The position numbers were made by a program, and so were the translations under genes. This document shows positions 9,373 to 60,408 of a stretch of 64,000 nt of DNA, one piece after another. The notes below the pieces were generated by a model. That model saw only the letters and a program-made list of their open reading frames with translations, did not search any database and was not told where the DNA came from. This DNA is from a virus: positions 188,001 to 252,000 of the IMG/VR virus record IMGVR_UViG_3300046513_000221; one strand, given 5' to 3'. Numbering within the stretch: the stretch's first letter is position 1; every line of letters begins with the position of its first letter.

Positions 9373-9441
9373 AGCGATTCGACCGTAGATTCGAAATGTG
9401 AACTTCTCTATAGTCGATCACTAAAATTGCTGTTGGAAAAC

Positions 9442-10197
9442 ATGAAAAAACTCAAACAGAAAAAGATAACAGTCGTCAACGACGACGCCGAAGAGCCGGT
9501 CGAGGTAGTGACCCCTAAGGCGAAACCCACCAAAGCGAAGTCAGTAAAGATGGACATCGAGAACATCGATGCACCGGATGACAACGTGGAGATCCTTGGC
9601 AAGAGCCAAGCGTACTCGCTCGCGATGTACGTGGACAAGCAGATGGACCCGAAGCTGTTCATCAAGTTCATCAAGCGTGTCGAGCGCCTCGTCCGTGGCA
9701 ACGTGGACTACAAGCTCTACCTCGACTACCTCCGCGAGGAGCGCGGTCTGAACAAGTGCGCTATCTTCCACAACGTCACATCGCAGCGCGCCGAGATCCA
9801 GCTGCACCATGTCCTGAGTAACCTGTACACCATCTGCATCACGGTGTGCAACCGCCTACTCAGCACCGAAAAGAAGGTCTCGTCCTTCATTCTCGCCGAT
9901 GAGGTCATCCGTCTGCACCTTGAGGACAAGATCGCACTGGTTCCTCTGAGCACCACCGTCCACGAACTCGTACACGCCGAGAAGATCCAGATCCCCAAGT
10001 CCCAGATCTACGGCAACTACGCCGCGTACTACGAACAGCACGAAGCCTTCATGGATGACTATGAGAAGGCCATCTATTCGAACAACGAGAAGCTACTGAT
10101 CATCGACCGCGAGGTCGTTTCCGAGCTTGAATATAAACCATCCGGCTCATCCGCAGCCGCCAACGAAGTAGAGGAAGCCGAAGATGAATCTGAATGA
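9442..10197 (+). CDS. Unknown phage protein, paralogue of the gene at 11.3 kb
   Basis: 251 residues from ATG 9442 (TTGGAAAAC upstream). The first 35 residues are charged. The core shares an extended pattern with the protein encoded at 11305-12039: F-I-K-x-V-E-R-L-V-R-G-N-x-x-Y-x-x-Y-L-x-Y-L, then ADEVIRLHLEDKIALVPL, TVHELVHAEKI and YGNYAAYYEQHE. The H-E-L-V-H string looks like a zinc protease motif but is H-Q-L-A-H in the paralogue and lacks the HExxH spacing, so I do not call a protease. It overlaps the next gene by 14 bases. Confidence 0.75.
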   Translation: MKKLKQKKITVVNDDAEEPVEVVTPKAKPTKAKSVKMDIENIDAPDDNVEILGKSQAYSLAMYVDKQMDPKLFIKFIKRVERLVRGNVDYKLYLDYLREERGLNKCAIFHNVTSQRAEIQLHHVLSNLYTICITVCNRLLSTEKKVSSFILADEVIRLHLEDKIALVPLSTTVHELVHAEKIQIPKSQIYGNYAAYYEQHEAFMDDYEKAIYSNNEKLLIIDREVVSELEYKPSGSSAAANEVEEAEDESE

Positions 10198-11304: not shown

Positions 11305-12039
11305 ATGAAAAAAGACGAAGACCAACCCATGAGTGCCGATCATTTCTCTCTATACGGCACATCTGGATTTTACGCGACATACAACTTGGTGGAGAACGAG
11401 AAGGCTCGCACCCGCTTCATCCAAGGCGTCGAGCAGATCGTCCGTGGATCCTTCGAGTACTCGAATTTCATCAAGTACCTGAAGACCGAGGCCAAGCTCA
11501 CGTACTGCGATGTGCTGACGGGCCTGAACGAGGACATCATGAAGGATCTCAGCCTTGAGATGCATCACTACCCGTTCACCCTGTACGACATCACAGAGAC
11601 GGTGCTGATGAAGCACCTGCTGAACAACATGGACTTCACCCGGCTGAGTATCGCCAACGAGGTGATGGACCTACACTTCTCCTTGCAGGTCGGGATCATT
11701 CCCCTGACTCTGACCGTCCACCAGCTGGCGCACAGCGGCGGGATCATCGCGGATCTGGACAACATCTTCGGCAACTACACGAAGTTCGCCGAGGACTACG
11801 AGCTTTTCATCCCCGAACCTGCAATGACGAGGCTGAAGGTCTACGAGTCCAAGAGCAAGAACAAGGCTCTGCTCAAGAACACCAATCGCAACACGCTGGA
11901 ATTCAACCCAGGCCTGTTCGTCATCGACTACGAGCCTACCTCCGGCGATCCGGAAGTTGACCAGTGGGAGAAGGGCAAAAAGCCGCCACCTTGGGATCCA
12001 GTAGCGGCCTTCGGTGAAGACACATCCTATGGAGATTGA
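11305..12039 (+). CDS. Unknown phage protein, paralogue of the gene at 9.4 kb
   Basis: 244 residues. No clear ribosome binding site precedes ATG 11305, so the exact start is uncertain. It shares with the 9.4 kb protein the blocks R-F-I-x-G-V-E-Q-I-V-R-G-S-F-E-Y, IANEVMDLHFSLQVGIIPL, TVHQLAHSGGII and IFGNYTKFAEDYELF, at the same spacing. The C-terminus ends in an acidic, Pro-rich tail (KKPPPWDPVAAFGED). Function unknown; both copies lie close together on the same strand, pointing to tandem duplication followed by divergence. Confidence 0.75.
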   Translation: MKKDEDQPMSADHFSLYGTSGFYATYNLVENEKARTRFIQGVEQIVRGSFEYSNFIKYLKTEAKLTYCDVLTGLNEDIMKDLSLEMHHYPFTLYDITETVLMKHLLNNMDFTRLSIANEVMDLHFSLQVGIIPLTLTVHQLAHSGGIIADLDNIFGNYTKFAEDYELFIPEPAMTRLKVYESKSKNKALLKNTNRNTLEFNPGLFVIDYEPTSGDPEVDQWEKGKKPPPWDPVAAFGEDTSYGD

Positions 12040-12040
12040 T

Positions 12041-12283
12041 ATGAACGAACAGCAAGTACGAAGGGAATTGGCGGCACAGGTCGCCGCCGGGACCATCAGC
12101 GCGTGCGCCTGTATGGGTGCCGTGTACGGGGAACCGCACTGCCCTTGCAAAATGAAGCAACTCGGTCTCCCCAGCTCACCGGCGCACATCGCCGCCAACG
12201 AGAAGGCGAACGAAGACCTCAAGAAGCTCTTCGGCCCCGGTGGCGTATTTCATCGACCCGCTCCCGCTCCAGAAAGTACTTGA
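12041..12283 (+). CDS. Small Cys-rich protein, possible zinc-binding
   Basis: 80 residues from ATG 12041 with ATGGAGATTGAT upstream. A cluster of four Cys (ISACACMG, then HCPCKMKQLG) could bind a metal. The last 65 bases overlap the 3' end of the convergent glycosylase gene, so the two genes share sequence in opposite strands. I do not recognise the family. Confidence 0.6.
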   Translation: MNEQQVRRELAAQVAAGTISACACMGAVYGEPHCPCKMKQLGLPSSPAHIAANEKANEDLKKLFGPGGVFHRPAPAPEST

Positions 12284-12689
12284 GCATGTGGTCCTCCGGA
12301 GCGATTTCCTGATACCGCATCCCGAGAACGAAGATGCAGTAGGACTCCATAGCGTAGTTGCCGACCTGCGGTAGCTTCATGACGGACTCGAACGAGTGCC
12401 AATCCTCTGCTTCCGAATAGGCTCTCGACAGGGTTCTGATAGCCTGAGTCCTGACCACTCCGAAACCCAGCGGCTTGAGCAGGGTGTAGACCTCCTCGTC
12501 GGAGGCCAGTACAAGAAAGTCCTCCGGACTGGGGAACCTTCTGAATAACTCGACAGCGATAGGCTTCGCCACGCTGCCTCTTGCCCGGCGCACTAGAGTG
12601 GCGCAGACGAGAACCTTCCAAGGATCGTTTGCGTACTCCTCCTGAACCAGCCGGTAACCTTCAGGTACGATATCAGTTCTAGTTGACAT
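12219..12689 (-). CDS. MBD4-like HhH-GPD DNA glycosylase
   Basis: 156 residues, the size of one glycosylase domain. The sequence follows the catalytic domain of the vertebrate mismatch glycosylase MBD4 closely: LVQEEYANDPWKVLV at the start, LLKPLGFGVVRTQAIRTLS, the helix-hairpin-helix LPQVGNYAMESYCIF (106-120), and the catalytic block PEDHMLKYF with Asp133. In MBD4 the corresponding Asp (in PEDHKLNKY) attacks the base at T:G or U:G mismatches. No methyl-binding domain and no iron-sulfur cysteines are present. Likely reaction: removal of thymine, uracil or a related base opposite G. It overlaps the end of a plus-strand gene by 65 bases. Confidence 0.85.
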   Translation of the reverse strand: MSTRTDIVPEGYRLVQEEYANDPWKVLVCATLVRRARGSVAKPIAVELFRRFPSPEDFLVLASDEEVYTLLKPLGFGVVRTQAIRTLSRAYSEAEDWHSFESVMKLPQVGNYAMESYCIFVLGMRYQEIAPEDHMLKYFLERERVDEIRHRGRRAS

Positions 12690-12742: not shown

Positions 12743-13078
12743 ATGTTCGGATTCCTCAAACGTAAGCCGGTAGCTCCACCTCCGCTTCCAACCTTCGACT
12801 TCGAGAAAGATACCCAGTATCTCTTCTCGATGATCGCGACCTACATTGAGAGCGAGAAGTTCAAGCTCCGGATTCACCAGAAGACCCTGATGACGGACAA
12901 CGACATCACGGAGATCTCCGTGGCGCTGCTCACCAGCGTCATCGAGTCCATCGCGGAGCCGTATCGCCGCATGCTCACCAAGTACATTCCCGATGAGAAG
13001 ATCGACGACTTCATCGCCGAGATCATCATCCGCAACATGGTGGAGGCAGGTATCACCATCAACCAATCGACAGTGTAA
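12743..13078 (+). CDS. Hypothetical protein
   Basis: 111 residues. N-terminus MFGFLKRKPVAPPPLP, then a helical domain (FDFEKDTQYLFSMIATYIES ... YIPDEKIDDFIAEIII). The first residues resemble the N-terminus of the chaperonin in this window (MFEFLKRKKP). It lies next to the Acb2-like gene (9-base gap). No function recognised. Confidence 0.65.
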   Translation: MFGFLKRKPVAPPPLPTFDFEKDTQYLFSMIATYIESEKFKLRIHQKTLMTDNDITEISVALLTSVIESIAEPYRRMLTKYIPDEKIDDFIAEIIIRNMVEAGITINQSTV

Positions 13079-13087
13079 GGAGAAAGC

Positions 13088-13396
13088 ATGGACAACCAGC
13101 ATCAAAAGATTTCGGGTTACAGGGACTTCGGTCAGGAGACCATCGATAAGATCAACGAGATCAAGGGTCTGGGCAACGGCCAACTGAAGCCCCTGATCGA
13201 CCGTCTGATAGCCGACCACGGCGCAGAGCTGCACCAGACGATCGGTATGCAGACCTCGATGACCGAGGAAGAGTACCTCGCCAAGATGGCCGAATTGGCC
13301 GACGCAAGCAAAAACATGGGAACGGCACAGGAACATCTGCGTATCGGTTTCATGATGCTGATCCGGGTGGTCGCCCGTCCGAAGACCGAGTACTAA
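13088..13396 (+). CDS. Acb2-like cyclic-nucleotide sponge (anti-CBASS / anti-Thoeris)
   Basis: 102 residues, AAGGAGAAAGC before the ATG. The N-terminus reads KISGYRDFGQETIDKINEIK followed by a helix; the C-terminus ends EHLRIGFMMLIRVVARP. Phage Acb2 proteins (Acb2/Tad1 hairpin-domain family, including T4 Vs.4) have the same order: I-x-G-Y-R-x-L, then N-x-I-K, then a final helix with L-Q-x-G-F-M-x-L-x-R-A-V-A-x-P. They form hexamers that bind cyclic di- and trinucleotides, blocking CBASS and in some cases Thoeris signalling. The assignment is by motif memory, not by alignment. Its neighbours are a glycosylase and a tRNA-like sequence. Confidence 0.75.
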   Translation: MDNQHQKISGYRDFGQETIDKINEIKGLGNGQLKPLIDRLIADHGAELHQTIGMQTSMTEEEYLAKMAELADASKNMGTAQEHLRIGFMMLIRVVARPKTEY

Positions 13397-13482: not shown

Positions 13483-13527
13483 AAGAAAGCACCTTGACAC
13501 CGAAATGGCGTCAAGGTGCGTTTCTTA
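13483..13527. terminator. Bidirectional terminator
   Basis: A-rich tract, then stem GCACCTTGAC / GTCAAGGTGC (13489-13519), then GTTTCTTA. Follows the tRNA-like sequence and faces the convergent minus gene. Confidence 0.8.
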
Positions 13528-14292
13528 CACCAGCAGCTGAATAAGCGGCTGAAGGAAGTTCTCGTAGTTGTAGCTGATGTCCAGCTCCTCAAGCTGATCA
13601 TCCTGAATGTACTCGAAGTACACGTCGTTGCTCGCCAGCCGCAGCTTGAGCTTGTACTGGTAGATGGCGTTCAGTTCCCGGTAGTAGTCGTGAGCCAGCT
13701 CCAGACTGACGTAGCAGTGACGTAATTCTTGGAGATAGTCGAAGATGAACTGCTTGTCCTTGTACTCGTAGAACTTCATGAGAATCTTGATCTCTTCGAT
13801 CAGATTGTCCTTGGCCTCCACGTCGTGATCCAGCCCCTTGAACCAGAACCTGTCGGTCTTGGCGTGCAGGAAGAACTCCTTCTTCCGCAGGAGCATGTAT
13901 GACGATGCCGTCTCCCGGAGCGTGAAGACCACGTTGTCGAACTCCAGCACGGTCGGCTTCTGGTCGTACATCGTGATCGAGTCCTTCTTGACGCTGAGGA
14001 TCCGGTCCTCGTCGATCTCGTTGTGCTCCCTGAAGAGCCTCATGTGCTCGATGAATCCGTCGTTCAGCTGCTTGACGAACTCCTTGTTGTCCCTCGCGTA
14101 CTTACCGATCTCGATGTGACGCTGCTTCTTGGTCATCCCGGATATCTGCTTGACGAACTTCTCGGGCAGCAGTCCGTTGTTCTTCGATATCGACCAGCCC
14201 CCCTCGATGATGTCGTACTCCTGAATGCTCTTGTTCTTCAGAACGAGAATGTCCTCGTTCAGGTAGACGAGTGAGTTCACGCTTCCAGACAT
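13525..14292 (-). CDS. Hypothetical protein
   Basis: 255 residues, largely helical and charged. Blocks include LNEDILVLKNKSIQEYDIIE, KFVKQISGMTKKQRHIEIGK and DKQFIFDYLQELRHCYVSLE. There is no signal peptide or membrane segment. I do not recognise the family. It starts from a divergent region rich in AATTATATATT motifs. Confidence 0.7.
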   Translation of the reverse strand: MSGSVNSLVYLNEDILVLKNKSIQEYDIIEGGWSISKNNGLLPEKFVKQISGMTKKQRHIEIGKYARDNKEFVKQLNDGFIEHMRLFREHNEIDEDRILSVKKDSITMYDQKPTVLEFDNVVFTLRETASSYMLLRKKEFFLHAKTDRFWFKGLDHDVEAKDNLIEEIKILMKFYEYKDKQFIFDYLQELRHCYVSLELAHDYYRELNAIYQYKLKLRLASNDVYFEYIQDDQLEELDISYNYENFLQPLIQLLV

Positions 14293-15053: not shown

Positions 15054-15434
15054 ATGAGTAAACGTAAACAGAGTAAGCAAGATAAAGAAGCCTTGGAGTT
15101 GGAGCGCAAGCTCGGCGGTCTCTTGGGCTGGGTTAACATCGAGCAATCATTGGCAGTTGATGGTACCGTCATCTTCACGGGGATTGCACCGAAGAGCAGT
15201 AAGGTCAGCGTCCTCCCGCAATGGGTACGCGACTGGCGCGACTGCGGTCCTCTGCTGACTCAGGTCAGTATGATCGCGATCTACATCGACAAGGACGCCG
15301 ACGAGATCGAGTGTCATGTCAATTCTCCAAACATGTCGAAGTACAATGACTTGGCACTGCGCATGGGGATCGTCGAATCCTTTATTGACGACATCGAAGA
15401 ACAGAAAGAAGAAGAACCTGTATGCTCCAGCTAA
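15054..15434 (+). CDS. Hypothetical protein upstream of RNA polymerase beta' fragment
   Basis: 126 residues from ATG 15054 (GAGGGTG upstream). An in-frame ATG at 15027 lies inside the promoter motif and is unlikely. The N-terminus is very basic (MSKRKQSKQDKE), the C-terminus acidic (IDDIEEQKEEEP). The middle has a hydrophobic pattern (PQWVRDWRDCGPLLTQVSMI). It overlaps the RNA polymerase gene by 13 bases, so the two are likely coupled. No family recognised. Confidence 0.65.
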   Translation: MSKRKQSKQDKEALELERKLGGLLGWVNIEQSLAVDGTVIFTGIAPKSSKVSVLPQWVRDWRDCGPLLTQVSMIAIYIDKDADEIECHVNSPNMSKYNDLALRMGIVESFIDDIEEQKEEEPVCSS

Positions 15435-16780
15435 AACCACGTAACATCGACGATGCATTCGTCGAAGCAAATCTGATCACCAATCACGAGCCACTGAGCA
15501 GCGATGCCAAGTTCACCCTCGACGGCGTCTTCTCCGAGAAGATCTTCGGCACGATGGCGAACGGCATCGACTACTCCTGCACCTGCGGGTGCTATCAAGG
15601 CGAGTTCAACAAGGGCTACGAGTGCGAGATCTGCAACGACCCTGTCGTGTTCAAGGGTCTGGCGCTGAAGAAGGAAGGCTGGATCGATCTGGAGTACCCG
15701 ATCATCCACCCGGTCTTCTACCGCTACCTGAAGAAGATCATCGGTGCGACCAATCTGCAGTCGATCATCAACTACAAGGGCAAGATCAAAGTGTCCGGCC
15801 AGCTGGACGAGGCTCCGCTGGAGTACCCGTTCCACGAGATCGGCATGATGCGTTTCATCGAGAACTTCGAGACCATCGTGGACAGCTACATCAGCCAGAA
15901 GTCCGAGAAGGCCGTCAAGCACGCCAAGGATATCGCCTTCATCGTCGAGCATCAGGAGCTTGTGTTCATCACCAAGTACCCGATCATCAACAGCCGCCTC
16001 CGTCCGGCGACCATCCTGAACGGCGAGTTCAGCTTCGACGCGATCAACAACCTGTACAACGGCATCATCCGTGGCTCCGGTCTGCTGCGCGATCTGACCG
16101 AGATCGAGAAGAACGACATGAACATCCTGTCTCTGGTCTACAAGAACCAGATGCTGGTGAACGAGTTGTTCGATACCGTCATCGACACGCTGTCCAACAA
16201 GGACGGCTACATCCGTGGCTCCCTGATGGGATGCCGCCTGAACTGGTCGAGCCGCAACGTCATCACGCCGCTGACCGGCAAGTACGGTATGGACCAGTGC
16301 GTCATGCCTTACCTGACCGCGATCGAGCTGCTGAAGCCGCTGATCATGCGCAAGCTGCAGAAGCTGAAGAAGATCAGCATCGCGGCGGCGCACAAGATCT
16401 GGTTCGAGGCCAATCTGGTCTACAACAAGCTCGTGCACAGCATCATGCGCGAGCTGGTGAAAGAAAACAACATCCGGATCCTGCTGAACCGTAATCCGAC
16501 GATCTCGGTAGGCTCTATCCTGATGCTGGAGGTAGCCGATATCAAGGAGGACATGGAAGACGTCACCTTGAGCATCTCCAACCTGATCCTGCCGTCCATC
16601 TCCGGCGACTACGACGGAGACGTTCTGAACATCGTCATGCTGTTCTCCAAGGCGTTCGTCGATCTGTTCCGTCCATTCATGCCGAGCAACCTCGTCATCG
16701 ACACCGACAGCGGCGAGTTCAACGGCAATTTCGCACCGTTCAAGGACGTGGCTATCGGCCTCCAGTCCATCGTGAACTAG
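15422..16780 (+). CDS. RNA polymerase beta' subunit, N-terminal half (split polymerase)
   Basis: 452 residues. The zinc ribbon lies near residues 53-75 (SCTCGCYQG ... YECEICNDP). Near the end, LLNRNPTISVGSI is followed by the catalytic metal-binding loop SGDYDGDVLNI, with Asp396, Asp398 and Asp400 corresponding to the NADFDGD motif of cellular beta'. The order matches bacterial beta' N-terminus up to the active site, but the protein is much shorter and stops soon after. The C-terminal half is encoded at 51.7 kb. Such splitting is known from phiKZ-like and other jumbo phages. Overlaps its upstream partner by 13 bases. Confidence 0.92.
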   Translation: MLQLKPRNIDDAFVEANLITNHEPLSSDAKFTLDGVFSEKIFGTMANGIDYSCTCGCYQGEFNKGYECEICNDPVVFKGLALKKEGWIDLEYPIIHPVFYRYLKKIIGATNLQSIINYKGKIKVSGQLDEAPLEYPFHEIGMMRFIENFETIVDSYISQKSEKAVKHAKDIAFIVEHQELVFITKYPIINSRLRPATILNGEFSFDAINNLYNGIIRGSGLLRDLTEIEKNDMNILSLVYKNQMLVNELFDTVIDTLSNKDGYIRGSLMGCRLNWSSRNVITPLTGKYGMDQCVMPYLTAIELLKPLIMRKLQKLKKISIAAAHKIWFEANLVYNKLVHSIMRELVKENNIRILLNRNPTISVGSILMLEVADIKEDMEDVTLSISNLILPSISGDYDGDVLNIVMLFSKAFVDLFRPFMPSNLVIDTDSGEFNGNFAPFKDVAIGLQSIVN

Positions 16781-35538: not shown

Positions 35539-35804
35539 TACTTCTTCTCGCTTTCCTTCTTGACGTACTCCACGCCGTCGATGACAACGGCGGTCGCCAG
35601 CGATTTACCTTCCGGGACCGTCGCGGAAGTGATACTGTTCGGGCAACGCATGACGGTCAGGCGCTGTCCGTCAGTATTCGTGAGGTAGAAGGTTTTGCAG
35701 TCCTTCAGTTCGGACGGCATCGAAGCGAAGTAGAGGGTCTTGGCGCTGTCTACGCAGCCGGTCAGAGCCAGCATCGATGCCAGCAGAATTGCGATACGCT
35801 TCAT
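35538..35804 (-). CDS. Small outer-membrane-type lipoprotein
   Basis: 88 residues with a signal peptide MKRIAILLASMLALTGC; the lipobox LTGC places the lipidated Cys at residue 17. The mature part has two Cys (DCKTFYLTN, MRCPNS) that may form a disulfide. Start overlaps the upstream stop (TAATG). Such lipoproteins can act in lysis or superinfection immunity; no specific family is evident. Confidence 0.7.
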   Translation of the reverse strand: MKRIAILLASMLALTGCVDSAKTLYFASMPSELKDCKTFYLTNTDGQRLTVMRCPNSITSATVPEGKSLATAVVIDGVEYVKKESEKK

Positions 35805-37288
35805 TACATACGCTCCAGGAAAGAAAGAACCTCGCTGATGAGAGGCTTCGGGTTCTCCTCGATTGCTTCGAGGTAGGACGACAGGTCGTTCGACTCGTCG
35901 TGGCTTGGCAGGTACTCGAACTCGGTACTCATGATGTCGCCGATGAACACGATGATCGACTTGTTCTCTTCGATCTTCTCGCGGATGAGCGAGTACTTCG
36001 AGAGGATGTTGTGGTAGGACTTGGACTGCACGATCTCGGTGACCAGCTTGCCCTTGTGCAGGTTGCGACGGCCACCCTTCGGACGGATCTGCGCCGTGAG
36101 GATCGCCGCCAGCGTGTAGTACTTTTGATCGAGCAGCCACTGGCGGAAGATCATCAGCATGTACAGGTATTCCTCGCGGTTGCACAACTGGACGTTGATC
36201 TTGTCCTGTGCGCCGAGATAGTGCGTCATCAGGCGCACCTGCATCTGGTTGGGCTGCACCTTGCGGGTGTTGTACGCCAGCTCCTCCGGCGAGAACCGCA
36301 TCTTGCGGCGATCGATGAAGTTCTTGATGTTCTCCTTGTCGATCGTGTACTGCATCTCGTTGGAGTTCACCAGACGCATCTCGACGCGTTGGAACGGGCT
36401 GACGTTGCTCTCGTTGCTGTCGGTGCGGATCTGGCTGATCGGCTTGAAGTTGATCTTGATGTTCTGCGTGAACTGGTACATGATCTGCTGCTTGATCACG
36501 ACGTGCAGGAAAGAGACGATCGACTTGTTGATGTCGAGCTTCGGTATCGTGTCCCGTACGATCTTGCGGAACAGGTCAAGCGACATGACGTGTTCGTCCA
36601 CCGAGATGTTCTTCAGGTACTCCCACATGACGCGGTCGGAGTACAGGGTGTTGTTGACGGAGGACTTAATGAACTTCGTGATCTTCTGCGGCAGGTCCAG
36701 CTCCACGCCGTGCTCGTCGATGTTGAACACACCGAAGATGCGATTGAACACGTTGATCGTGATGTCCTGCTCCTTCTTGATCTGCATCACGTCCATATAG
36801 GAGCAGATCAGAGGGATGACGATTCTCGACATGATCGAGATGCAGATCACCATCTTGGCGTAGGAGTCCTTGAACTGTAGTTCCTCCTCGCCGGTGCGGG
36901 TCTCGATCGAGATCGTGTACTCCGCATTCACCTTCTCGCGGATGGCCGTTTGCAGGATCTCGTCGCTGATCAGCTGCTCGAACAGGAAGTCGATGAACAG
37001 ATTCACGTCGCCGAATGGCACACCTTCCTCGGTATGACCCTCGATGAAGGTACCGTCCTGGATGTTCATCATCACAGTCAGGTAGCTCTCCGGCAGGTCG
37101 TCGTAGAGGTCGAAGAAGTACTTCAGATCCTCGACGATCTTACCGATGATCGAGTTGTACACTCGCTTTCGGTTGATGGGAAAGAGGCAGTACTTGGCCT
37201 CCTCCCCGATGTTAAACAGCTGGGTGAAATCGAAGGTGAAGTCCTTCTCGTTCACACCAAACAGACTATCAATATTCGTGATCGTCAT
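35804..37288 (-). CDS. Large unknown helical phage protein
   Basis: 494 residues, AAAAGGGTACCGC before the ATG. Long helical segments with hydrophobic faces (MVICISIMSRIVIPLICSYM near residues 150-170) and a basic C-terminal region (IRPKGGRRNLHKGK). No catalytic motif. In general style it resembles the 396-residue protein at 55.1-56.3 kb, but I see no clear shared block. Function unknown. Confidence 0.65.
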   Translation of the reverse strand: MTITNIDSLFGVNEKDFTFDFTQLFNIGEEAKYCLFPINRKRVYNSIIGKIVEDLKYFFDLYDDLPESYLTVMMNIQDGTFIEGHTEEGVPFGDVNLFIDFLFEQLISDEILQTAIREKVNAEYTISIETRTGEEELQFKDSYAKMVICISIMSRIVIPLICSYMDVMQIKKEQDITINVFNRIFGVFNIDEHGVELDLPQKITKFIKSSVNNTLYSDRVMWEYLKNISVDEHVMSLDLFRKIVRDTIPKLDINKSIVSFLHVVIKQQIMYQFTQNIKINFKPISQIRTDSNESNVSPFQRVEMRLVNSNEMQYTIDKENIKNFIDRRKMRFSPEELAYNTRKVQPNQMQVRLMTHYLGAQDKINVQLCNREEYLYMLMIFRQWLLDQKYYTLAAILTAQIRPKGGRRNLHKGKLVTEIVQSKSYHNILSKYSLIREKIEENKSIIVFIGDIMSTEFEYLPSHDESNDLSSYLEAIEENPKPLISEVLSFLERM

Positions 37289-37362: not shown

Positions 37363-38250
37363 TCAACGACGCACCTTGCTGTCCACTTTGTTGTCGACTT
37401 TCGTGTTCAATTTGCTCAGAACACGGGCCTTGCGATCGACCGTTTCCTTCTCACTCTTGTCGATCCGGGCCTTACCGCGTGCGGCGTTCACCGACTTCAC
37501 GACCTTCTTCTCCACCTTCGGAGCGGCCTGTTTAGGCGCTTTCATCTGCATCTTCTTGTGCATCTTGTAGTCTTGATCCACCTCGGCGAAGCTGCGGACG
37601 GCGTTCTTGATGCTGAACTTCGTCGCGTTGATGATGGCCGGGGCGTAGTTGGAGTACTCGTTCAGGCCCAACTGCCGGATGAACATCATGGCGAACATGA
37701 TGGACTTCTCGTAGTTGACGATCTCGTCCGGGTTGCGACTCGTCGGCGCATGGGTCAGACTCATCTCAGGCAGTTTGCTCTTGAAGTACGGGATCAGGAG
37801 CTCTTGCTTGTTGAACACGTACGCGTACGTGAAGGCAAATGCCGAGTTGTTACTGAATATTCGGATGTTTTTGCCGAGCAGATTAGTGCTTTTCGCATTA
37901 ACCTCAAGGAATTCTACCGCTACGTCGTACGTAACGCCAGACACCGTCTCAGATGGGACGCGCACGATGATGAACACGCTGTCCTGAACCTTGTAGACAT
38001 TGTACTTGAAGGATCCGTTCTCCTTCAGCACATGCTGGTACTTGCCGGTGATCTGCGCGAGCAGCTTCTTGCGCTTCTCGGTCGCGGCTGCGCCCTTCGT
38101 ACCGAACGGGTCGTTGATGAAGGACTGGATCGTGTACTTGATCCCGCTGAAGAGAGACCCGATGACGGATTGGTCAGCGGGTTTCGGAGCATGGGTGGGA
38201 TCCTTGATGTATGAAGGGAGAGTGTGGGTACTCTTCGTGGTTTCGGCCAT
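37363..38250 (-). CDS. Hypothetical protein with Lys-rich C-terminus
   Basis: 295 residues from ATG 38250, with GAGGTGCCAC upstream. The N-terminal 30 residues are unstructured, then a mixed domain (SVFIIVRVPSETVSGVTYDV). The last 70 residues are a basic, Lys/Ala/Val-rich tail with repeated K-V-x-x-K. The tail suggests binding to nucleic acid or a membrane. Family not recognised. Preceded by the 20-base promoter motif. Confidence 0.65.
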   Translation of the reverse strand: MAETTKSTHTLPSYIKDPTHAPKPADQSVIGSLFSGIKYTIQSFINDPFGTKGAAATEKRKKLLAQITGKYQHVLKENGSFKYNVYKVQDSVFIIVRVPSETVSGVTYDVAVEFLEVNAKSTNLLGKNIRIFSNNSAFAFTYAYVFNKQELLIPYFKSKLPEMSLTHAPTSRNPDEIVNYEKSIMFAMMFIRQLGLNEYSNYAPAIINATKFSIKNAVRSFAEVDQDYKMHKKMQMKAPKQAAPKVEKKVVKSVNAARGKARIDKSEKETVDRKARVLSKLNTKVDNKVDSKVRR

Positions 38251-38265
38251 GTGGCACCTCAAAAT

Positions 38266-40343: not shown

Positions 40344-41492
40344 AAAAAGCGTGTTGGTCAGATCGACGGTGATGTCGGTGATCATCTCACCGCAGTGGCC
40401 GCACTTCAGGTTAGGCAGCTTGTACGAAACCTTGAACGCGTCCATCTTGGCGCTGATCTCCTTGTCGAGGAACGCCTTGTCTTCCGGATCGATGTCGATG
40501 ATCACGCGGATCTTGTCCTGAATCGTCTCCAGTTCGATGAACTCCAGACGGCCCTCGGACAGAGCCTGAATGTGAGGAATCGCCATGGTGCCGATGTGCT
40601 TCAGGTAGCCGAAGATCTCCGGCTCGACGGCGGGGTGCTGCTCGGCGCGGTTCAGCGTGCGGATGTAGTCGTGCAGGGTCGGCGTGGTCAGGTCCAGAAC
40701 GGTTTTGCTGACCGGCAGGATGATGCGACGGGTGTTGTTTACGACCGACGACTTCACCAGCTCGTTTGCTGGCAGGTTCTTGGACAGCAGGTCGCGAATG
40801 TAGCTGCCAACCTCGTTCTCGTCCTTGGCCTGAATCAGCAGTTCCTTGCTGATCTTCGCCTTGTTGGTCTTCTCGCACGAGCCGCAGATGACGTTGTAGT
40901 CGCCTTCTTCCGGGAAGGTGGCGCAGTAGATGCCGTAGATCAGGGTCTCGAAGTCGGCCTCGGACGTGATCTTCAGCCACAGGTCGAAGTCGATCTTACC
41001 GAAGTTGGCGTTAACCATCTTCGAGTAGGTGAAGTTGAACAGCTTCAGGTTCTGTTCCTTCTCGGTGCCGGTGAACTTGCGCACCTTGATCATGTCGTCG
41101 TTGTTCAGTGCGCGGAAGGCGGCACGGTAGCCCGACTGCAGGGCGACGATCTCGAAGGAAGGCTTCAGGAACAGCGTGTCCATTTCCTGATGGGTGCCCA
41201 GCGGGTTATCCGACTTACGGATGTTGATCGCGGACAGGTCGATGTTCAGCGCGGCCAGAACCTTGCGAGCAGCGCTCTGCGCGGTTTCCTTGGCCGGGGC
41301 CGGTGCTGCCGGTGCCTCGGGAGCCACTGGAGCAGGGGATTGCTCGACAGCGGTCTGTACCGGGGCTTCGCCAGCGATTGCGGTCGAAACTTCCGCTTCC
41401 GCTACGGGAGCAGCCTGTTGACCCAGATCTTCTTGCGAAACGCCCTGCTCCGCCAGCATGCTATGCAGATCGTCGATGTTGTTGATTTCCAT
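40320..41492 (-). CDS. Baseplate/tail assembly protein with zinc motifs (T4 gp26/gp51-like, tentative)
   Basis: 390 residues from ATG 41492 with AGGAAAACAGAC upstream. Residues 15-100 are a Pro/Ala/Glu-rich linker. The folded part has two CxxC pairs: VICGSCEKTNKAK and, near the end, LKCGHCGEMITDIT. Paired zinc-type cysteines and this length resemble assembly proteins of the T4 baseplate hub class. The frame ends after VDLTNTLFQSIARVQ, but a -1 frame continues downstream (see neighbouring entry). Next upstream genes are gp25-like and other baseplate candidates. Confidence 0.6.
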   Translation of the reverse strand: MEINNIDDLHSMLAEQGVSQEDLGQQAAPVAEAEVSTAIAGEAPVQTAVEQSPAPVAPEAPAAPAPAKETAQSAARKVLAALNIDLSAINIRKSDNPLGTHQEMDTLFLKPSFEIVALQSGYRAAFRALNNDDMIKVRKFTGTEKEQNLKLFNFTYSKMVNANFGKIDFDLWLKITSEADFETLIYGIYCATFPEEGDYNVICGSCEKTNKAKISKELLIQAKDENEVGSYIRDLLSKNLPANELVKSSVVNNTRRIILPVSKTVLDLTTPTLHDYIRTLNRAEQHPAVEPEIFGYLKHIGTMAIPHIQALSEGRLEFIELETIQDKIRVIIDIDPEDKAFLDKEISAKMDAFKVSYKLPNLKCGHCGEMITDITVDLTNTLFQSIARVQ

Positions 41493-41587
41493 GTCTGTTT
41501 TCCTATTCAGGTTTAGTGTCGGAGTGAAATACTCCTGATGGTCTAACCCCATGTTGACCCTTAGGCCATTTTACGATGGCATTTCGT

Positions 41588-41605
41588 CATAAAAAATATA
41601 TGCGA
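41588..41605 (-). promoter_or_regulatory. AT-rich motif upstream of a gene start
   Basis: TCATAAAAAATATATGCG at 41588-41605, between the terminator at 41615 and the ATG at 41492; reads as CGCATATATTTTTTATGA on the minus strand. Confidence 0.3.
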
Positions 41606-41614
41606 AACAGAAAT

Positions 41615-41648
41615 TCCCCTAAGCACGAATTATCGGCTTAGGGGATTG
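41615..41648 (-). terminator. Terminator of the gp25-like gene
   Basis: Stem TCCCCTAAGC / GCTTAGGGGA with an 11-base loop; minus-strand 3' side followed by ATTTCTG. Confidence 0.65.
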
Positions 41649-41651
41649 CTG

Positions 41652-42086
41652 TCAGAAGTAGAAGTCAGAGACCACATTGTCCTTGACCGGGAGATTCGGA
41701 TCGCGCTTGAACGTCAGTGCGAAGACATCCTTGGCGTCCACCAAGATCGTCAGCCTGAATATGCAAGCCAGAATCGTTTGACCCGACTGCTTATCGGTGG
41801 TGAACTGGATGGTCGCGTCCGAGACCTGATCGCTCGGCAGGTACTTGGATATCTGCGAGTTGATCCTATCTGTGAGGTCGATCAGCGTGGAGTTGTCTGC
41901 GAACTCTTGCAGGTACGTTCCGATACCGATCCCGGCTCCCACGCAGTTCGGGATGGTTCCCGGTTCCATGATAAGGAGGGTCTGGATACGCTTCGCCAAC
42001 GCCTTCAGGTCTGTCTCGACGTGCGATGACCTGAAGGGACTCGGCAGAAGGGTCGCCTCTCCCTTGAGGGTAGCATCGACGGCCAT
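41652..42086 (-). CDS. Baseplate wedge protein, gp25/GpW-like
   Basis: 144 residues (T4 gp25: 132). The N-terminal half (ETDLKALAKRIQTLLIMEPG, then GIGIGTYLQEFADNSTLIDL) fits gp25: helix, a turn with Glu-Pro, and a Gly-rich stretch before helix two. The C-terminal beta part (DATIQFTTDKQSGQTI) also fits. gp25 is a conserved wedge component beside gp6 in contractile tails and type VI secretion. Good ribosome binding site AAGGGGTAG. The terminator follows its stop. Confidence 0.65.
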   Translation of the reverse strand: MAVDATLKGEATLLPSPFRSSHVETDLKALAKRIQTLLIMEPGTIPNCVGAGIGIGTYLQEFADNSTLIDLTDRINSQISKYLPSDQVSDATIQFTTDKQSGQTILACIFRLTILVDAKDVFALTFKRDPNLPVKDNVVSDFYF

Positions 42087-42096
42087 GAGCTACCCC

Positions 42097-42552
42097 TTAG
42101 GTGTTGTTGTTGATGTTGAAGACCTTCTTCTTGTCTTCCGGGGTCGGAGCGGGGTTCGCCTTCTCGTGGTCCAGATGGGCGAGGATGTTGAAGCCCTGAG
42201 CGCGGGACAGCAGCTGGTTCAGAACCTCCAGATGCTCCTTCATGTAAACCAGCTTCTGGTTGTCCTCTTCCTTCTTCTTGTCCATCTTGGACTCGAATTG
42301 GGACATCTTCTCGCGTGCCTCGCGCAGAGCCTGCTGGATGCGAGCGATGCAGTCGGTCTTCTCCTCGTGGGTCTTGATGTTGACCACGCGGCGAGCCAGA
42401 TGGTCGATCTCGGCCACGGAGTAGCCCTTCAGCTTGCGGGTAGCCCACGTCATGAAGCTCTCGACGCTGAACTCTTCGTTCATCATCTTCTGTTCCTCCA
42501 GTGCCAGAACGGCAGTTTCGGTCAGGAAGATCGGTTGCAGATTGAGTGCCAT
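42097..42552 (-). CDS. Coiled-coil phage protein
   Basis: 151 residues. The N-terminus is LNLQPIFLTETAVLALEEQ. Residues 60-120 form a long charged helix (EEKTDCIARIQQALREAREK, SKMDKKKEEDNQKL) likely to be a coiled coil. Between the gp25-like and a 166-residue gene in the baseplate stretch. Not recognised; chaperone or structural adaptor possible. Confidence 0.6.
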   Translation of the reverse strand: MALNLQPIFLTETAVLALEEQKMMNEEFSVESFMTWATRKLKGYSVAEIDHLARRVVNIKTHEEKTDCIARIQQALREAREKMSQFESKMDKKKEEDNQKLVYMKEHLEVLNQLLSRAQGFNILAHLDHEKANPAPTPEDKKKVFNINNNT

Positions 42553-44450: not shown

Positions 44451-44813
44451 ATGAGCACCAACATCAAGAAAATAATGATCGTCTGCCTCACTCTCTTCAT
44501 GACCTGCATCCTTGCTGGATGTGGTACGATGAACCCGGAGGCCGGTAAGATCGACGTGACCGTCGCGAAACAAGAGGCAGTTTTCATCGAGATCCCACAG
44601 GAAACCCTCGACAAGTGCAAGAAGCCTCGCAAGCAAGATACCGTCTTCTTCCAGCACCTCAAGGAGGGGAAGATCAAAGAGAAGGAACTCGCTGCCGCCT
44701 ACGTGGAGAGCTACACCGGCCACGTCAACTGCTATCTGTCCAAGGAAGAGGCAGTTTTCCTCCAGCAGAAGCTGAAGGAACAAACTAAAACGGTGAAGAA
44801 AGATGGCAATTAA
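44451..44813 (+). CDS. Outer-membrane spanin-like lipoprotein (Rz1-like)
   Basis: 120 residues from ATG 44451, TAAGGAGCACGAA upstream. Signal peptide with lipobox: CILAGCG, lipidated Cys at residue 24. The mature part is charged and helical and has two more Cys. Follows the i-spanin-like gene by 10 bases. It is longer than Rz1 of lambda (60), but two-gene spanins of this size are known. Overlaps the next gene by 11 bases. Confidence 0.65.
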   Translation: MSTNIKKIMIVCLTLFMTCILAGCGTMNPEAGKIDVTVAKQEAVFIEIPQETLDKCKKPRKQDTVFFQHLKEGKIKEKELAAAYVESYTGHVNCYLSKEEAVFLQQKLKEQTKTVKKDGN

Positions 44814-47304
44814 CCCATTAGACCAGTTAAAGATCATCGCTAGCAGGGAGATTGATGTACTCACATCTCACTGCGTGAAGGTGGTGATCAAGGATCAGGA
44901 TGAGGCCGATGTATTCGAGACCCAAGAGAGTCTCCGTCAGGCCTCCCTGTACCTCGACGTGTACTACCAGCTGGACAAGTACCCGACGCATGACATCCTG
45001 CGGACGCTCATTCGAGCAGCCGCTACACAAGACAGTCCTGATGCCGCTACGGTCGAGGCCGTGCAGACGCAGATCGATCTGAACTACAGTAACGCCCCGG
45101 TGACCCGGACAGCGCTGATCGCGCTCAAGGACAAGATTGCCCGGAACGGCTTCATCTCGATCACTCTGGTGGACAACAACATCACCGAGGAACGCACGCA
45201 CTTCCTTGAGAGCTTCATCGATCTGAACAAGTACTACCAGAATCTCAAGGAGACCTACGGCATCCCGATCTGGAAGAGCCGCAAGGCATATGACTTCGAT
45301 CTGCTGTTGGAGCCTAAGAAGGAGGATGACCTCATTCTGGCTAACTTCAGTGAGAACTACGCCGAGTGCCAGCGCTACTTCGTTTCCGTGATGTTCACCA
45401 AGTCGATGGCCAAGGATATGGTCGGCACGACCTCCACCGGCAGCTACATCAACTACTACAAGGCCTTCGGTCGCTTCTTCATCTGCTTCATGGTGATGAT
45501 CAAGACGATCAACGAGAAGCTCAAGAACCCGCTGGACGCTAACTCGATGGATGAGTACATCCTCGACAACATGCTCTTCTCCTTCGGGTTCACGGACTTC
45601 AAGAACTTCCCTGTAGACTACAAGCGGAAGATCGTCCAGAACATCAACGAGTTGATTCGACACAAGGGTACTGACCGTATCTTTACCGACATCCTCCAGA
45701 TCTTCGGTTTCAAGGACATCAACATCTTTAAGTACTACCTCGTCAAGCACCAGTCGTTCAACGATGACAAGAGCATGGCCGGGGTTGACGACAAGATCCG
45801 CTTCGTCTCACACAACGTGACCATCCCGTCCCTTCAGGAGGCGGTGAAGCGCAAGGAGTACCTGACCCACTCGTTCGAGAGCGTGACCGACAGCGATCCG
45901 TACTGGCAAGCGTCCAAGCTGGAGATCGGGAAGAAGGACTTCAACTACGTCAACAGTAAGTACTTCTCCATCGAGAGTAGCTTCGACCTCTTCAAGGAGA
46001 CCTCGAACATCGCATACTTCATCAATCTGGTGAAGACCCTGCGTGACGAGTACCCGGAAGCCGACAACGCCCTGACCCTCACGGCGACCAAGATCTCCGA
46101 TCGTCCGATCGAGCTGGTCGATCTGCTGGTCGCAGCGCAGATCATCGTCTCGAACTACTACGGTATCGACGACACGATTGATTTCTCGCAAGAGAGCATC
46201 TACAATGTGTTGAGCTTCGACCCGGAGGATGAGACCCCGCTGAACAAGCTGGTCACCTCCGACGAACACGACATCAACAACCCCGACACGCAGCGGTACG
46301 TGCTGGATCATATCTCGGACTACGACGATGTGAGCAAGAGCGAGCTGGAGACCATCTTCAAGTCCGACAAGGGCAAGATGGCCAACATGATCGCGCTCAT
46401 CAAGAGCCAACAGCACACGATCGGTGATGTGCGCGACTTCAAGAAACTCCAGGCACTCTACGAGTCGAAGTTCCTCGCGAAGTTCAACCTCCGCGAATAC
46501 GAAGGTTTCATTGGCTACAACCAGTACCTTCGCACTCGGAACCTCGATCTGCACACCTACATCGACACGATCGTGACCTCGTCCACGCAGGACGAGAAGA
46601 AGGTGGAAGTCCTGTACATCCTTAGCGCTCTGACCGAGTATGCGAAGAACCTCGATGTGCAGTTCGACAACCGCTTCTCGGACGTTATCACGTCATACAT
46701 CAACCGGATGGTATCGATCTTCAAGGCGTACACTGTGACGCTGAAGGACTTCACCATCTTCTACTCGTACGACGACAGTCTCTTCTTCACGTACTTCGAT
46801 GAGGCATTCGTCTCCACGAAGAACACCTTCGACGATGATCTGATCCAGATCAACGACCACGTTGGTGCAAGCCGGGGGAGCGAAGTCCTGCATGATGTCA
46901 AGATGCATCTGCTGGACCGGGCTGAGGGAATGACGACCATCATCCGCAATCATGCGAATGAGGACCACCTGTATCTCGTGGACCGACACAGTGAGCGGAC
47001 GCTTCTCACGATCGAAGACAGGTTCAGCATGGAGGATTCGATCCATTCCATGCGTACCAAGAAAGAGGATAGAGAGACCACCCTCCGGTACAGGGACTTC
47101 ATCGAGTATGACAAGGAGGAACCTTCCGAATTTAACCTCGCGATCGAAAAGGCGTGGTTCGCCGACAGGACGCGCCCTACGTCCGTCCTCTCTCCGGAGG
47201 ATCACATGCCGATACATGACCGAACGGGCATGCGCAGCATCGGTGCTAACATTTCAGACCGCGTCAGGTTCTCGGACAGCTTCGAGATACGAGTAATCGA
47301 ATAA
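44803..47304 (+). CDS. Large probable baseplate/tail structural protein
   Basis: 833 residues, the second largest in the window. Mostly helical with many Asp, Tyr and Lys (YINYYKAFGRFFICFMVMIK; INELIRHKGTDRIFTDILQI, followed by FGFKDINIFKYYL). The 'N-E-L-I-R-x-K-G-T-x-x-x-x-x-D-I-L-x-I-F-G' segment I associate with baseplate proteins of large phages, though I cannot name the family. No enzyme motif. It shares a unit with the spanins and a 239-residue structural candidate, which fits late expression. Confidence 0.6.
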   Translation: MAINPLDQLKIIASREIDVLTSHCVKVVIKDQDEADVFETQESLRQASLYLDVYYQLDKYPTHDILRTLIRAAATQDSPDAATVEAVQTQIDLNYSNAPVTRTALIALKDKIARNGFISITLVDNNITEERTHFLESFIDLNKYYQNLKETYGIPIWKSRKAYDFDLLLEPKKEDDLILANFSENYAECQRYFVSVMFTKSMAKDMVGTTSTGSYINYYKAFGRFFICFMVMIKTINEKLKNPLDANSMDEYILDNMLFSFGFTDFKNFPVDYKRKIVQNINELIRHKGTDRIFTDILQIFGFKDINIFKYYLVKHQSFNDDKSMAGVDDKIRFVSHNVTIPSLQEAVKRKEYLTHSFESVTDSDPYWQASKLEIGKKDFNYVNSKYFSIESSFDLFKETSNIAYFINLVKTLRDEYPEADNALTLTATKISDRPIELVDLLVAAQIIVSNYYGIDDTIDFSQESIYNVLSFDPEDETPLNKLVTSDEHDINNPDTQRYVLDHISDYDDVSKSELETIFKSDKGKMANMIALIKSQQHTIGDVRDFKKLQALYESKFLAKFNLREYEGFIGYNQYLRTRNLDLHTYIDTIVTSSTQDEKKVEVLYILSALTEYAKNLDVQFDNRFSDVITSYINRMVSIFKAYTVTLKDFTIFYSYDDSLFFTYFDEAFVSTKNTFDDDLIQINDHVGASRGSEVLHDVKMHLLDRAEGMTTIIRNHANEDHLYLVDRHSERTLLTIEDRFSMEDSIHSMRTKKEDRETTLRYRDFIEYDKEEPSEFNLAIEKAWFADRTRPTSVLSPEDHMPIHDRTGMRSIGANISDRVRFSDSFEIRVIE

Positions 47305-57564: not shown

Positions 57565-60408
57565 TTACTGACAGGCTTCGCATTCCTCGAAGCCGGGGTC
57601 GCCCGGACGCATGTAGCATGCGGCACCGGCGTCAGCCTCACCTGCACCCGGAACAGCGACAGGAGCCGCTGCGACAGGTACATTGGACTGTACCGCGTTC
57701 AGTTCACCGCCCCGGCCAGTCGATTTCTCGGCGGAGGTAGCGGAGGTGGTACGCAGGTAGTAGGTGGTCTTCAGACCGCGCTGCCATGCCAGCTTGTAGG
57801 TGGCATCCAGCTTCTTGCCGGAAGCACCGGCCATGTAGATGTTGAGGCTCTGCGCCTGATCGATCCACTTCTGACGGCGAGCTGCCGCCTCGATCAACCA
57901 TTCCGGAGCGATCTCGAACGCCGTTGCATAGACGTCCTTGATGCTCTGTGGGATGCGGCTGATCTTCTGGATCGAACCGTCGTAGAACTTGATGTCCGAG
58001 ATCATGACCTCGTCCCACAGGCCCAATTCTTTCAGGTCGGCAACCAGATAGCGGTTGATGATCGTGAACTCGCCGGACAGGTTCGACTTGACGAACAGGT
58101 TCTGGAAGGTCGGCTCGATGCACGCCGATACGTCGATGATGTTACTGATCGTCGCGGTCGGAGCGATAGCGAGGCAGTTCGAGTTGCGCATGCCGTGGTA
58201 CTTGATGCGCTGACGCAGCTCGTCCCACACCGATTCGCCGTAGAAGCTGTCGGTGTTGATGGTCAGGTACTCGGCACCGCGCTCTTCGGCCAGCAGACGC
58301 TGGGAGTCCTGCGGCAGAATGCCCTTGGACCACAGCGAGCCTTCGAACGTGAAGTAGCGACCGCGCTCGATAGCCATGTCGCACGACGACGAGTAGGCGT
58401 GGTACGCGATCATTTCAGTCGATTTGTCCGCGAACAGGACGGCATCTTCCGAAGCGTACGGGACGTGCATCATCTGCAAGCAGTCCTGGAAACCCATCAT
58501 GCCCAGACCGACAGGGCGGTGGCGCATGTTGGAGTTCTTTGCCTTCTCGACCGAGTAGAAGTTCAGGTCGATGACGTTGTCCAGAATGCGCATTGCAGTC
58601 TTGACGGTCTTCGCCAGTTTCGACTCGTCGATGTCGTACACCGGTGCGCCGGTGATGGCATCGTTGCCGATCTTGATCATGTGAGCGACCAGATTGACGG
58701 AGCCAATGTTGCATACGGCGATCTCGTCGGCGCTGGTGTTCAGGGTGATCTCGGTACACAGGTTCGAGCTGTGAACGACGCCCATGTGCTGCTGCGGCGA
58801 ACGGATGTTGCACGGATCCTTGAAGGTGATCCATGGGTGGCCGGTCTCGAACAGCATCGACAGCATCTTGCGCCACAGATCGACGGCCTTGACGGTCTTG
58901 AACAGCTTGATCTCGCCGGTCTGCGTCTTGCGCTCGGCGTTGGTGTAGGCGGTCTCGAATGCGCGACCGAACAGATCGTGCAGGTCGGTGACGTCGGAAG
59001 GCGAGAACAGGGTCCATTCACCCTTCTCCATGACACGCTTCATGAACAGATCGGGGATCCAGTTCGCGGTGTTCATGTCGTGAGTACGACGGCGCTCATC
59101 GCCGGTGTTCTTACGCAGGTCGAGGAATTCCTCGATGTCGAGGTGCCACGTTTCCAGATAGGCGCAGACAGCGCCCTTGCGCTTGCCGCCTTGGTTCACG
59201 GCGACGGCGGTGTCGTTCACCACCTTCAGGAACGGTACGACGCCTTGCGACTTGCCGTTCGTTCCCTTGATGCGAGCGCCCAGCGAACGAACTGGAGTCC
59301 AGTCGTTGCCCAGACCGCCAGCCCACTTCTGCAAGCGAGCGTTGTCGTGGATACCGTCGTAGATGCCGTCCAGATCATCGCTGATCGTGGTCAGGAAGCA
59401 CGATGCCAGCTGCGGACGCGTAGTACCGGAGTTGAACAGCGTTGGGGTGGAATTCATGTACTCGAACTGCGACAGCAGGTCGTAGAACTCGATGGCGCGA
59501 GCTTCGCGGTCGGACTCGTTCAGGGCCAGACCCATAGCCACGCGCATCCAGAAGATCTGCGAGGACTCGTAACGAACTTCTTCCTGATGCAGGAAGTAGC
59601 GGTCGTACAGGGTTTGCAGACCGATGAAGCTGAACTGCGCATCGCGTTCCCACTTCAGGGCCGCTTGCAGACGGTCCAGATCGTAGGTTGCCATTGCCGG
59701 TTGCAGCATTTCCAGCTTGACGCCCAGCTCGATCGATGCGCGCAGCACCTGATCGCGTTCCGGTTTGTTCAGGTGGAAGAAGACTTCCTTGTGGATGTCA
59801 TCGGCCAGCAGACGTGCAGTCACTTGATTGTACTGCGGCTCGGTCTCGATGAAGCCACGAGCGGCCATCAGGACAGCCTTGTCGATCTCGGCTTCGGTGA
59901 CGCCGTTGTACAGCTGCTGGTACATCACATCGAAGATGGCGTCCGGGTTAACGTTGTCCAGACCCTTGCAAGCGTCCTTGATGCGGATGCGCAGGTAAGC
60001 GGTCGATACGATACCCTCGGTACCGTCGGTGTTGATCATGCGCATCTTGATTGCGCCGCCGTTGTCGTGGCCCACTTCGCGCTCGGCGCGGTGGCGGTTG
60101 CGGTAGATGACGTAGTCACGTGCCACATCGTGCAATGCGGAGCGCATCATGTACAGTTCGACGGTGTCCTGCACGGTCTCGATGTTGACGGCGGTCAGGC
60201 CGGAGCGTTCGCAGGAGGCTTCCAGATGTTTGACGATGTCGATGGTCAGGGTAGCTGCCAGTTCGCGCTCGCCTTGCGACAGGACGCCAGCGCTGTTGCG
60301 CAGTTGACCATCGGCATCCTTCAGCATTGCTTGCAGGATTGCGTTGGTGATCTTTTCCGCTGCGAAAGGCACTACGTTACCATCGCGTTTGATAATCTTA
60401 TCCAGCAT
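57565..60408 (-). CDS. nrdA: Ribonucleoside-diphosphate reductase, alpha subunit (class Ia)
   Basis: 947 residues, longer than E. coli NrdA (761). The N-terminal 100 residues form an ATP-cone (IKRDGNVVPFAAEKITNAIL); a second cone-like and N-terminal domain follows. Active-site elements: SCFLTTISDD (about residue 336; first redox Cys), SSNLCTEITL (about 549; thiyl Cys and Glu of the N-x-C-x-E motif), and MRNSNCLAIAPTATISNIID. The C-terminal CEACQ carries the shuttle Cys pair. Reduces ribonucleotides to deoxyribonucleotides with NrdB. The long form with two cones resembles that of Pseudomonas-type bacteria rather than T4 (754), hinting at acquisition from a bacterial host. Confidence 0.96.
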   Translation of the reverse strand: MLDKIIKRDGNVVPFAAEKITNAILQAMLKDADGQLRNSAGVLSQGERELAATLTIDIVKHLEASCERSGLTAVNIETVQDTVELYMMRSALHDVARDYVIYRNRHRAEREVGHDNGGAIKMRMINTDGTEGIVSTAYLRIRIKDACKGLDNVNPDAIFDVMYQQLYNGVTEAEIDKAVLMAARGFIETEPQYNQVTARLLADDIHKEVFFHLNKPERDQVLRASIELGVKLEMLQPAMATYDLDRLQAALKWERDAQFSFIGLQTLYDRYFLHQEEVRYESSQIFWMRVAMGLALNESDREARAIEFYDLLSQFEYMNSTPTLFNSGTTRPQLASCFLTTISDDLDGIYDGIHDNARLQKWAGGLGNDWTPVRSLGARIKGTNGKSQGVVPFLKVVNDTAVAVNQGGKRKGAVCAYLETWHLDIEEFLDLRKNTGDERRRTHDMNTANWIPDLFMKRVMEKGEWTLFSPSDVTDLHDLFGRAFETAYTNAERKTQTGEIKLFKTVKAVDLWRKMLSMLFETGHPWITFKDPCNIRSPQQHMGVVHSSNLCTEITLNTSADEIAVCNIGSVNLVAHMIKIGNDAITGAPVYDIDESKLAKTVKTAMRILDNVIDLNFYSVEKAKNSNMRHRPVGLGMMGFQDCLQMMHVPYASEDAVLFADKSTEMIAYHAYSSSCDMAIERGRYFTFEGSLWSKGILPQDSQRLLAEERGAEYLTINTDSFYGESVWDELRQRIKYHGMRNSNCLAIAPTATISNIIDVSACIEPTFQNLFVKSNLSGEFTIINRYLVADLKELGLWDEVMISDIKFYDGSIQKISRIPQSIKDVYATAFEIAPEWLIEAAARRQKWIDQAQSLNIYMAGASGKKLDATYKLAWQRGLKTTYYLRTTSATSAEKSTGRGGELNAVQSNVPVAAAPVAVPGAGEADAGAACYMRPGDPGFEECEACQ

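Follow-up and report, generated by a model that had tools for sequence, protein, structure and literature searches.

The protein P0001 comes from a jumbo phage in whose DNA uracil very probably takes the place of thymine, and by sequence and predicted fold it belongs to the MBD4-type DNA glycosylases. We propose, with confidence just short of even, that it is a uracil glycosylase specific for mismatches with G, which repairs cytosine deamination in that genome. Thymine in DNA is thought to let uracil from cytosine deamination be recognised as damage, and phages with uracil-DNA give up uracil as a damage signal; telling mistaken uracils from normal ones is a repair problem with no known solution in uracil-DNA genomes. 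The uracil-DNA literature consulted deals with how such DNA is made, how its promoters are read and how it is shielded from host Ung, and U:G repair is not among its topics. The main point of this analysis is the combination of an MBD4-type glycosylase that has an arginine for the orphan guanine with a phage that has several independent sequence signs of uracil-DNA, which makes the question of U:G repair testable with one small protein.

The window analysed here is the whole stretch of 64,000 nucleotides (positions 188,001 to 252,000 of record IMGVR_UViG_3300046513_000221); the source record (G000) is an IMG/VR virus of 263,413 bp and 55% GC. The ORF of P0001 has an ATG start, 156 codons and a stop on the minus strand, and encodes a single-domain protein (Table 1). 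A phmmer search against 177,635 PDB sequences ranked MBD4 chains first (E = 4.9e-15, residues 12-139), followed by an endonuclease III (9e-8) and MIG.Mth (0.0045), and by this measure the likeness to MBD4 is far beyond chance. HhH-GPD lies just under its Pfam cut-off (24.6 vs 26.2 bits), while the NCBIfam nth model reached 22.3 bits against a cut-off of 211.7, which does not support membership in Endonuclease III. A profile of 47 phage homologues matched MBD4 over the full length (E = 1e-48), and MIG (1e-12) and EndoIII (3.5e-12) each over parts only, so that the best sequence and profile match across the whole domain is the MBD4 type. The original prediction, which had described this ORF as following the vertebrate MBD4 catalytic domain, is thus borne out by phmmer, the family profile and the fold search alike, and the four motifs it quoted are found at residues 14-28, 70-84, 106-120 and 131-139. 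Placement with ordinary Nth, MutY or AlkA enzymes, which it had named as its own refutation, was rejected, as phmmer, the nth score, the family profile and Foldseek all speak against it, and the helix-hairpin-helix and the catalytic Asp are both present. Membership among aGPT-PPlase base-modification proteins was also rejected: no such model was matched, and all 23 scanned members gave PF00730 alone in Pfam.

The AlphaFold2 model of P0001 (mean pLDDT 92.7, pTM 0.86) has the HhH-GPD fold with MBD4 as the nearest structure; the best 16 PDB matches in Foldseek are all MBD4 (TM by query 0.71-0.75), then come MIG and MutY. Among predicted viral protein structures, the sole match at E < 0.001 is a granulovirus HhH-GPD protein. 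In the alignment of 86 phage rows, the positions of MBD4 Asp560, Tyr540, Gly507, Ile547, Phe548 and Leu563 are invariant (86/86) and P0001 keeps all of them, while Gln449 is kept in 84 rows, P0001 included. The equivalents in P0001 are D133 (Asp560, in agreement with the catalytic residue that had been predicted), Y112 in the hairpin (Tyr540) and Q16 (Gln449). With only two cysteines P0001 has no four-cysteine Fe-S loop, and because its tyrosine sits at the position of the lyase lysine in Nth, it is probably a monofunctional glycosylase without an iron-sulphur cluster. R35 aligns with the arginine finger Arg468, a position which holds Arg in 7 of the 86 rows (P0001 and six others) and Leu or Gln in most. 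In MBD4, Arg468 binds the estranged (orphan) guanine, and the substrates opposite G are U, 5-halogenated U, hmU and T (PMC12073362).

P0001 also differs from the family at sites that are otherwise invariant or nearly so (N467 to R34, G536 to Q108 and T469 to A36), and the position of MBD4 K562 is Met. Since near-invariant positions are changed and the branch is long, its DNA handling may differ and its specificity may have drifted. The same long branch and altered invariant sites could mark a non-glycosylase derivative of the HhH fold, e.g., one linked to base modification, or a decaying inactive copy; in Bosavirus, the relatives share an operon with genes for thymidylate synthase, dCMP deaminase and a HAD-type hydrolase, which also counts for this reading. 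However, the ORF is full-length, has a good ribosome-binding site upstream and gives a model of high confidence, the catalytic Asp, Tyr and Gln are kept, and the scanned relatives (23/23) match HhH-GPD alone, and we consider this explanation improbable.

The prediction of uracil-DNA comes first from kinship. The RNA polymerase beta' subunit of the phage shares 50% identity with its counterpart in Yersinia phage phiR1-37, with BpSp, PBS1/AR9, LPJP1 and Staphylococcus jumbo phages next in rank, an IMG/VR search with the RNA polymerase subunit found phiR1-37 as the sole relative, and 90 ORFs match phiR1-37, some being opposite-strand shadows. According to PMC8150378 and PMC12697855, thymidine in phiR1-37 is wholly replaced by deoxyuridine. 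The dCTP deaminase and dTTP pyrophosphatase of phiR1-37 were shown to support uracil-DNA synthesis, and the phage has homologues of both (g103 at G000 78247-78816, 34%, PF00383 E = 1e-17; g100 at G000 82521-83552, 26%, Ham1 E = 8e-20), which keep the phiR1-37 gene order around an RNA polymerase subunit; g100 and g103 were identified with the published UniProt entries from their annotation, their gene neighbours and the spacing of the accession numbers. No relatives of the Ham1 protein were found in the IMG/VR scan. All families that PMC10303552 reports as exclusive to uracil-DNA phages (g207, g278/g282, g234, g244 and g196) have homologues in this phage. The promoter subunit gp226 of AR9 reads uracil and excludes thymine via Val206 (PMC9209446), and the gp226 homologue in the window, in which V220 aligns with this uracil-selective valine, matches 20 phage records only, all of the phiR1-37/PBS1 lineage. 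Thymidylate synthase (PF00303) and dUTPase (PF00692) gave no match in the phage while control genomes were positive, so by homology the genes of uracil-DNA biosynthesis are present without a match to either enzyme. Among twenty further phage proteins scanned with Pfam, the matches related to nucleotide metabolism or repair were the deaminase, the Ham1 protein, a guanylate-kinase-like gene and ribonucleotide reductase only. A homologue of phiR1-37 g177 (G000 41466-42230, 28%) gave no Pfam match; its N-terminal ATDMDDVLVD recalls deoxyribonucleotidases, to which the PBS1 dTMP phosphatase belongs.

The homologue of dTTP pyrophosphatase, an enzyme which clears thymine nucleotides, would also suit a reading in which thymine is the real target of P0001, with T (opposite G or more loosely) removed so that uracil-DNA stays free of thymine, or in aid of degrading thymine-containing host DNA. 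MBD4-type pockets accept thymine (PMC12073362), and the changes at N467 and G536 could make activity less dependent on a mismatch; nevertheless, the enzymes characterised in this family are specific for G mismatches, P0001 keeps the arginine finger, T:G pairs in host DNA are few and positive evidence is lacking, which makes a thymine target quite unlikely. An attack on host DNA, raised in the original prediction, found no positive evidence either.

In phiR1-37, g278 and g277 are adjacent, whereas here their homologues are separated by the glycosylase and a small convergent ORF, and the glycosylase gene is therefore an accessory insertion next to a gene of a uracil-DNA-exclusive family. In synonymous codon usage it ranks 8th lowest of 251 genes, an atypical value which together with the insertion site suggests a recent acquisition. 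The predicted convergent overlap is present, as the small ORF on the plus strand (start 12014 or 12041, end 12283) shares 65 bp with the 3' end of the glycosylase gene; this ORF had no family match. A promoter scan gave nothing above chance under sigma-70 rules, which need not apply to a phiR1-37-like lineage.

A second insertion lies between the g277 and g276 homologues, and its product, which matches phage protein p26 in the PDB (E = 4e-10; the Acb2_Tad1 hairpin domain is below cut-off), is likely a cyclic-nucleotide sponge. The counter-defence candidate that was said to sit beside the glycosylase is thus real, although not directly adjacent, since the g277 homologue intervenes. Two insertions in the same small region could point to a defence or counter-defence role of P0001, such as countering deaminases directed at phage DNA, or damaging host or rival DNA. 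With the two genes on opposite strands and a conserved gene between them, and with a single weak PADLOC match (17 bits, E = 7e-4, to a "type II nicking endonuclease" model), such a role appears very improbable.

Table 1. Features of the window around and beyond the glycosylase gene (positions within the 64,000-nucleotide window).
Feature	Position	Strand	Basis or remark
phiR1-37 g282 homologue	9427..10197	+	paralogue of g278 (41%)
phiR1-37 g278 homologue	11305..12039	+	42%; family reported only in uracil-DNA phages (PMC10303552)
Small convergent ORF	12041..12283 (alternative start 12014)	+	cysteine-containing; overlaps P0001 3' end by 65 bp
P0001, MBD4-type HhH-GPD DNA glycosylase, 156 aa	12219..12689	-	phmmer, profile, fold search
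Codon of catalytic Asp133 (= MBD4 Asp560)	12291..12293	-	invariant, 86/86 phage rows
Helix-hairpin-helix region, residues 105-120 (KLPQVGNYAMESYCIF), with Tyr112	12330..12377	-	alignment and DSSP of model
Codon of Arg35, equivalent of MBD4 arginine finger Arg468	12585..12587	-	alignment
GGAGGA, likely ribosome-binding site of P0001 gene	12699..12704	-	sequence; about 10 nt upstream of start
phiR1-37 g277 homologue	12743..13078	+	28%
Acb2-like protein	13088..13396	+	second insertion, between g277 and g276 homologues
phiR1-37 g276 homologue	13525..14292	-	37%
RNA polymerase beta' N-terminal subunit	15422..16780	+	50% to phiR1-37 g274
AR9 gp226 homologue, RNA-polymerase promoter subunit	35804..37288	-	Val206 conserved as V220
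phiR1-37 g244 homologue	37363..38262	-	32%; uracil-DNA-phage-exclusive family
phiR1-37 g234 homologue	44803..47304	+	29%; uracil-DNA-phage-exclusive family
Ribonucleotide reductase large subunit	57565..60408	-	Pfam

MBD4-type glycosylases are best known from vertebrates; in phages they are widespread and their annotation is poor. The expectation that phages have few or no such enzymes did not hold, as relatives were found at 286 IMG/VR loci (profile-guided scan) and in 8 isolate-phage records (tblastn), namely Stenotrophomonas, Xanthomonas and Janthinobacterium phages and one cyanophage; the proteins are annotated as hypothetical, ENDO3c or endonuclease III. Our literature search found no paper on phage MBD4 enzymes. 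Bacterial relatives were not matched in two scans of genome contigs with peptide patterns, which are narrow, so that these scans do not show absence. In the maximum-likelihood tree two MBD4 rows fall among viral rows, and P0001 sits on a long branch grouped with Bosavirus-like rows (95/88); the root is drawn at midpoint and no direction of transfer is therefore claimed.

Most relatives of P0001 sit in phages not known for uracil-DNA. A thymidylate-synthase-family gene is present in 22 of 50 carriers of the MBD4-type gene, dCMP deaminase in 25/50 and a C5-methylase in just 3/50, counts which are descriptive only because no background rate was measured. This breadth, these gene counts, and the atypical codons and insertion site suggestive of recent acquisition would all suit a general phage glycosylase for T:G and U:G (or hmU:G) mismatches, acquired by chance from another phage as a mild anti-mutator and with no special tie to uracil-DNA. 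On the other hand, the orphan-guanine arginine is present in P0001 yet rare in the family, and we regard this explanation as rather unlikely. Each deaminated cytosine in uracil-DNA yields U:G, so even a general enzyme would act on U:G here.

Two other links were considered and rejected. A tie to 5-methylcytosine, as in MIG, fails since the phage has no C5-methylase and only 3/50 carriers have one; with none found in the phage, deamination of m5C is an unlikely source of substrate. Carriers with dCMP deaminase and without thymidylate synthase were considered as hidden uracil-DNA phages, and four such contigs compared with DSS3_VP1 and phiR1-37 showed no convincing kinship.

Two arrangements among relatives are recorded here in their own right. 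In Bradleyvirinae, the MBD4-type gene lies in a conserved operon (L019 4929-7600, L020 4929-8064, L021 4929-7972) with thymidylate synthase, dCMP deaminase, a gene annotated as DHFR and a protein annotated as HAD or pyrophosphohydrolase, a set that hints at modified pyrimidines. On a Caldicellulosiruptor plasmid (L114 1-994), a HhH base-excision repair protein adjoins a DNA cytosine methyltransferase, as would be expected for an enzyme of the MIG type.

The MBD4-type gene is absent from phiR1-37, PBS1, AR9, S6, BpSp, Madawaska and DSS3_VP1, where positive controls worked, and from six IMG/VR contigs with the g278 family, three of which are fragments. The idea of a trait shared by uracil-DNA phages was rejected on these seven isolates and six uracil-type contigs, and absence from thirteen uracil-DNA or related records means that the gene is not a general need of uracil-DNA. 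With their g278-family gene, the six IMG/VR contigs L140-L145 (up to 306 kb long, with 24-29% GC at that locus) are candidates for additional uracil-DNA jumbo phages. GC content is 32% in phiR1-37, 24-29% at the sampled loci of related phages and 55% in this phage, a comparison in which most related phages were sampled at one locus only and host composition confounds. With that confounding, the low GC of the relatives fits unrepaired deamination; DSS3_VP1, an unrelated uracil-DNA phage without the MBD4-type gene, has 47% GC.

Where U pairs with A throughout the genome, a general uracil glycosylase would have ruinous effects, and uracil can no longer serve as the usual sign of deamination, so that a position opposite G is the remaining signal. 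An MBD4-type enzyme, which checks the orphan guanine, would meet the need of such a genome, and U opposite G is among the known MBD4 substrates; for these reasons U:G repair is proposed. P0001 would flip out uracil (or a stray thymine) opposite guanine, Arg35 would check the orphan guanine and Asp133 would hydrolyse the glycosidic bond, so that U from cytosine deamination would be recognised and the genome-wide U:A pairs spared. Host or phage enzymes, an AP endonuclease followed by polymerase and ligase, would then turn the abasic site back into C:G. The phage encodes a DNA polymerase homologue and a NAD-ligase homologue (G000 155931-157988); two AP-endonuclease families looked for in the phage were not found, and a host AP endonuclease is therefore assumed. 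From the fold, the family, the catalytic and orphan-guanine residues and the uracil-DNA gene set we infer the activity, the substrate, the mismatch specificity and the role in infection. The original prediction of protection for phage DNA with deaminated modified bases came close as regards protection, while the uracil-DNA evidence makes plain cytosine deaminated to uracil opposite G the likely lesion. Host Mug-type enzymes might already repair such lesions, which counts against a need for P0001.

A uracil-DNA genome with an acquired, dedicated base-excision step that tells mutagenic uracil, opposite G, from coding uracil, opposite A, is a possibility that we would put somewhat below an even chance. 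If true, it would solve in a natural way the problem commonly cited to explain the use of thymine in DNA, and it may help explain the 55% GC here compared with the AT-rich sampled relatives.

Compared with known systems, P0001 resembles the vertebrate MBD4 domain in fold, length, catalytic Asp, tyrosine at the lyase-Lys position, Gln449, arginine finger and few cysteines, and departs from it in having no methyl-CpG-binding domain, about 30% identity, a phage genome as its context and the changes N467 to R, G536 to Q, T469 to A and K562 to M. The phage MBD4-type proteins (Bosavirus and related, annotated ENDO3c or hypothetical) are of the same family and tree branch (95/88), again at about 30% identity, whereas they are encoded in an operon with thymidylate synthase and dCMP deaminase, and in most of them the arginine finger is replaced by Leu or Gln. 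MIG.Mth and Endonuclease III (Nth) share the HhH-GPD superfamily with P0001, and MIG also acts on T:G and U:G; unlike P0001, both have an Fe-S cluster, Nth has the lyase lysine, and their sequence and fold match to P0001 is much weaker. With phiR1-37, PBS1/AR9 and S6 the phage shares genome kinship, the uracil-DNA gene set and the uracil-reading RNA polymerase subunit, while those phages, as tested, are without an MBD4-type gene and those sampled are AT-rich (24-33% GC), in contrast to the 55% GC of the phage that encodes P0001.
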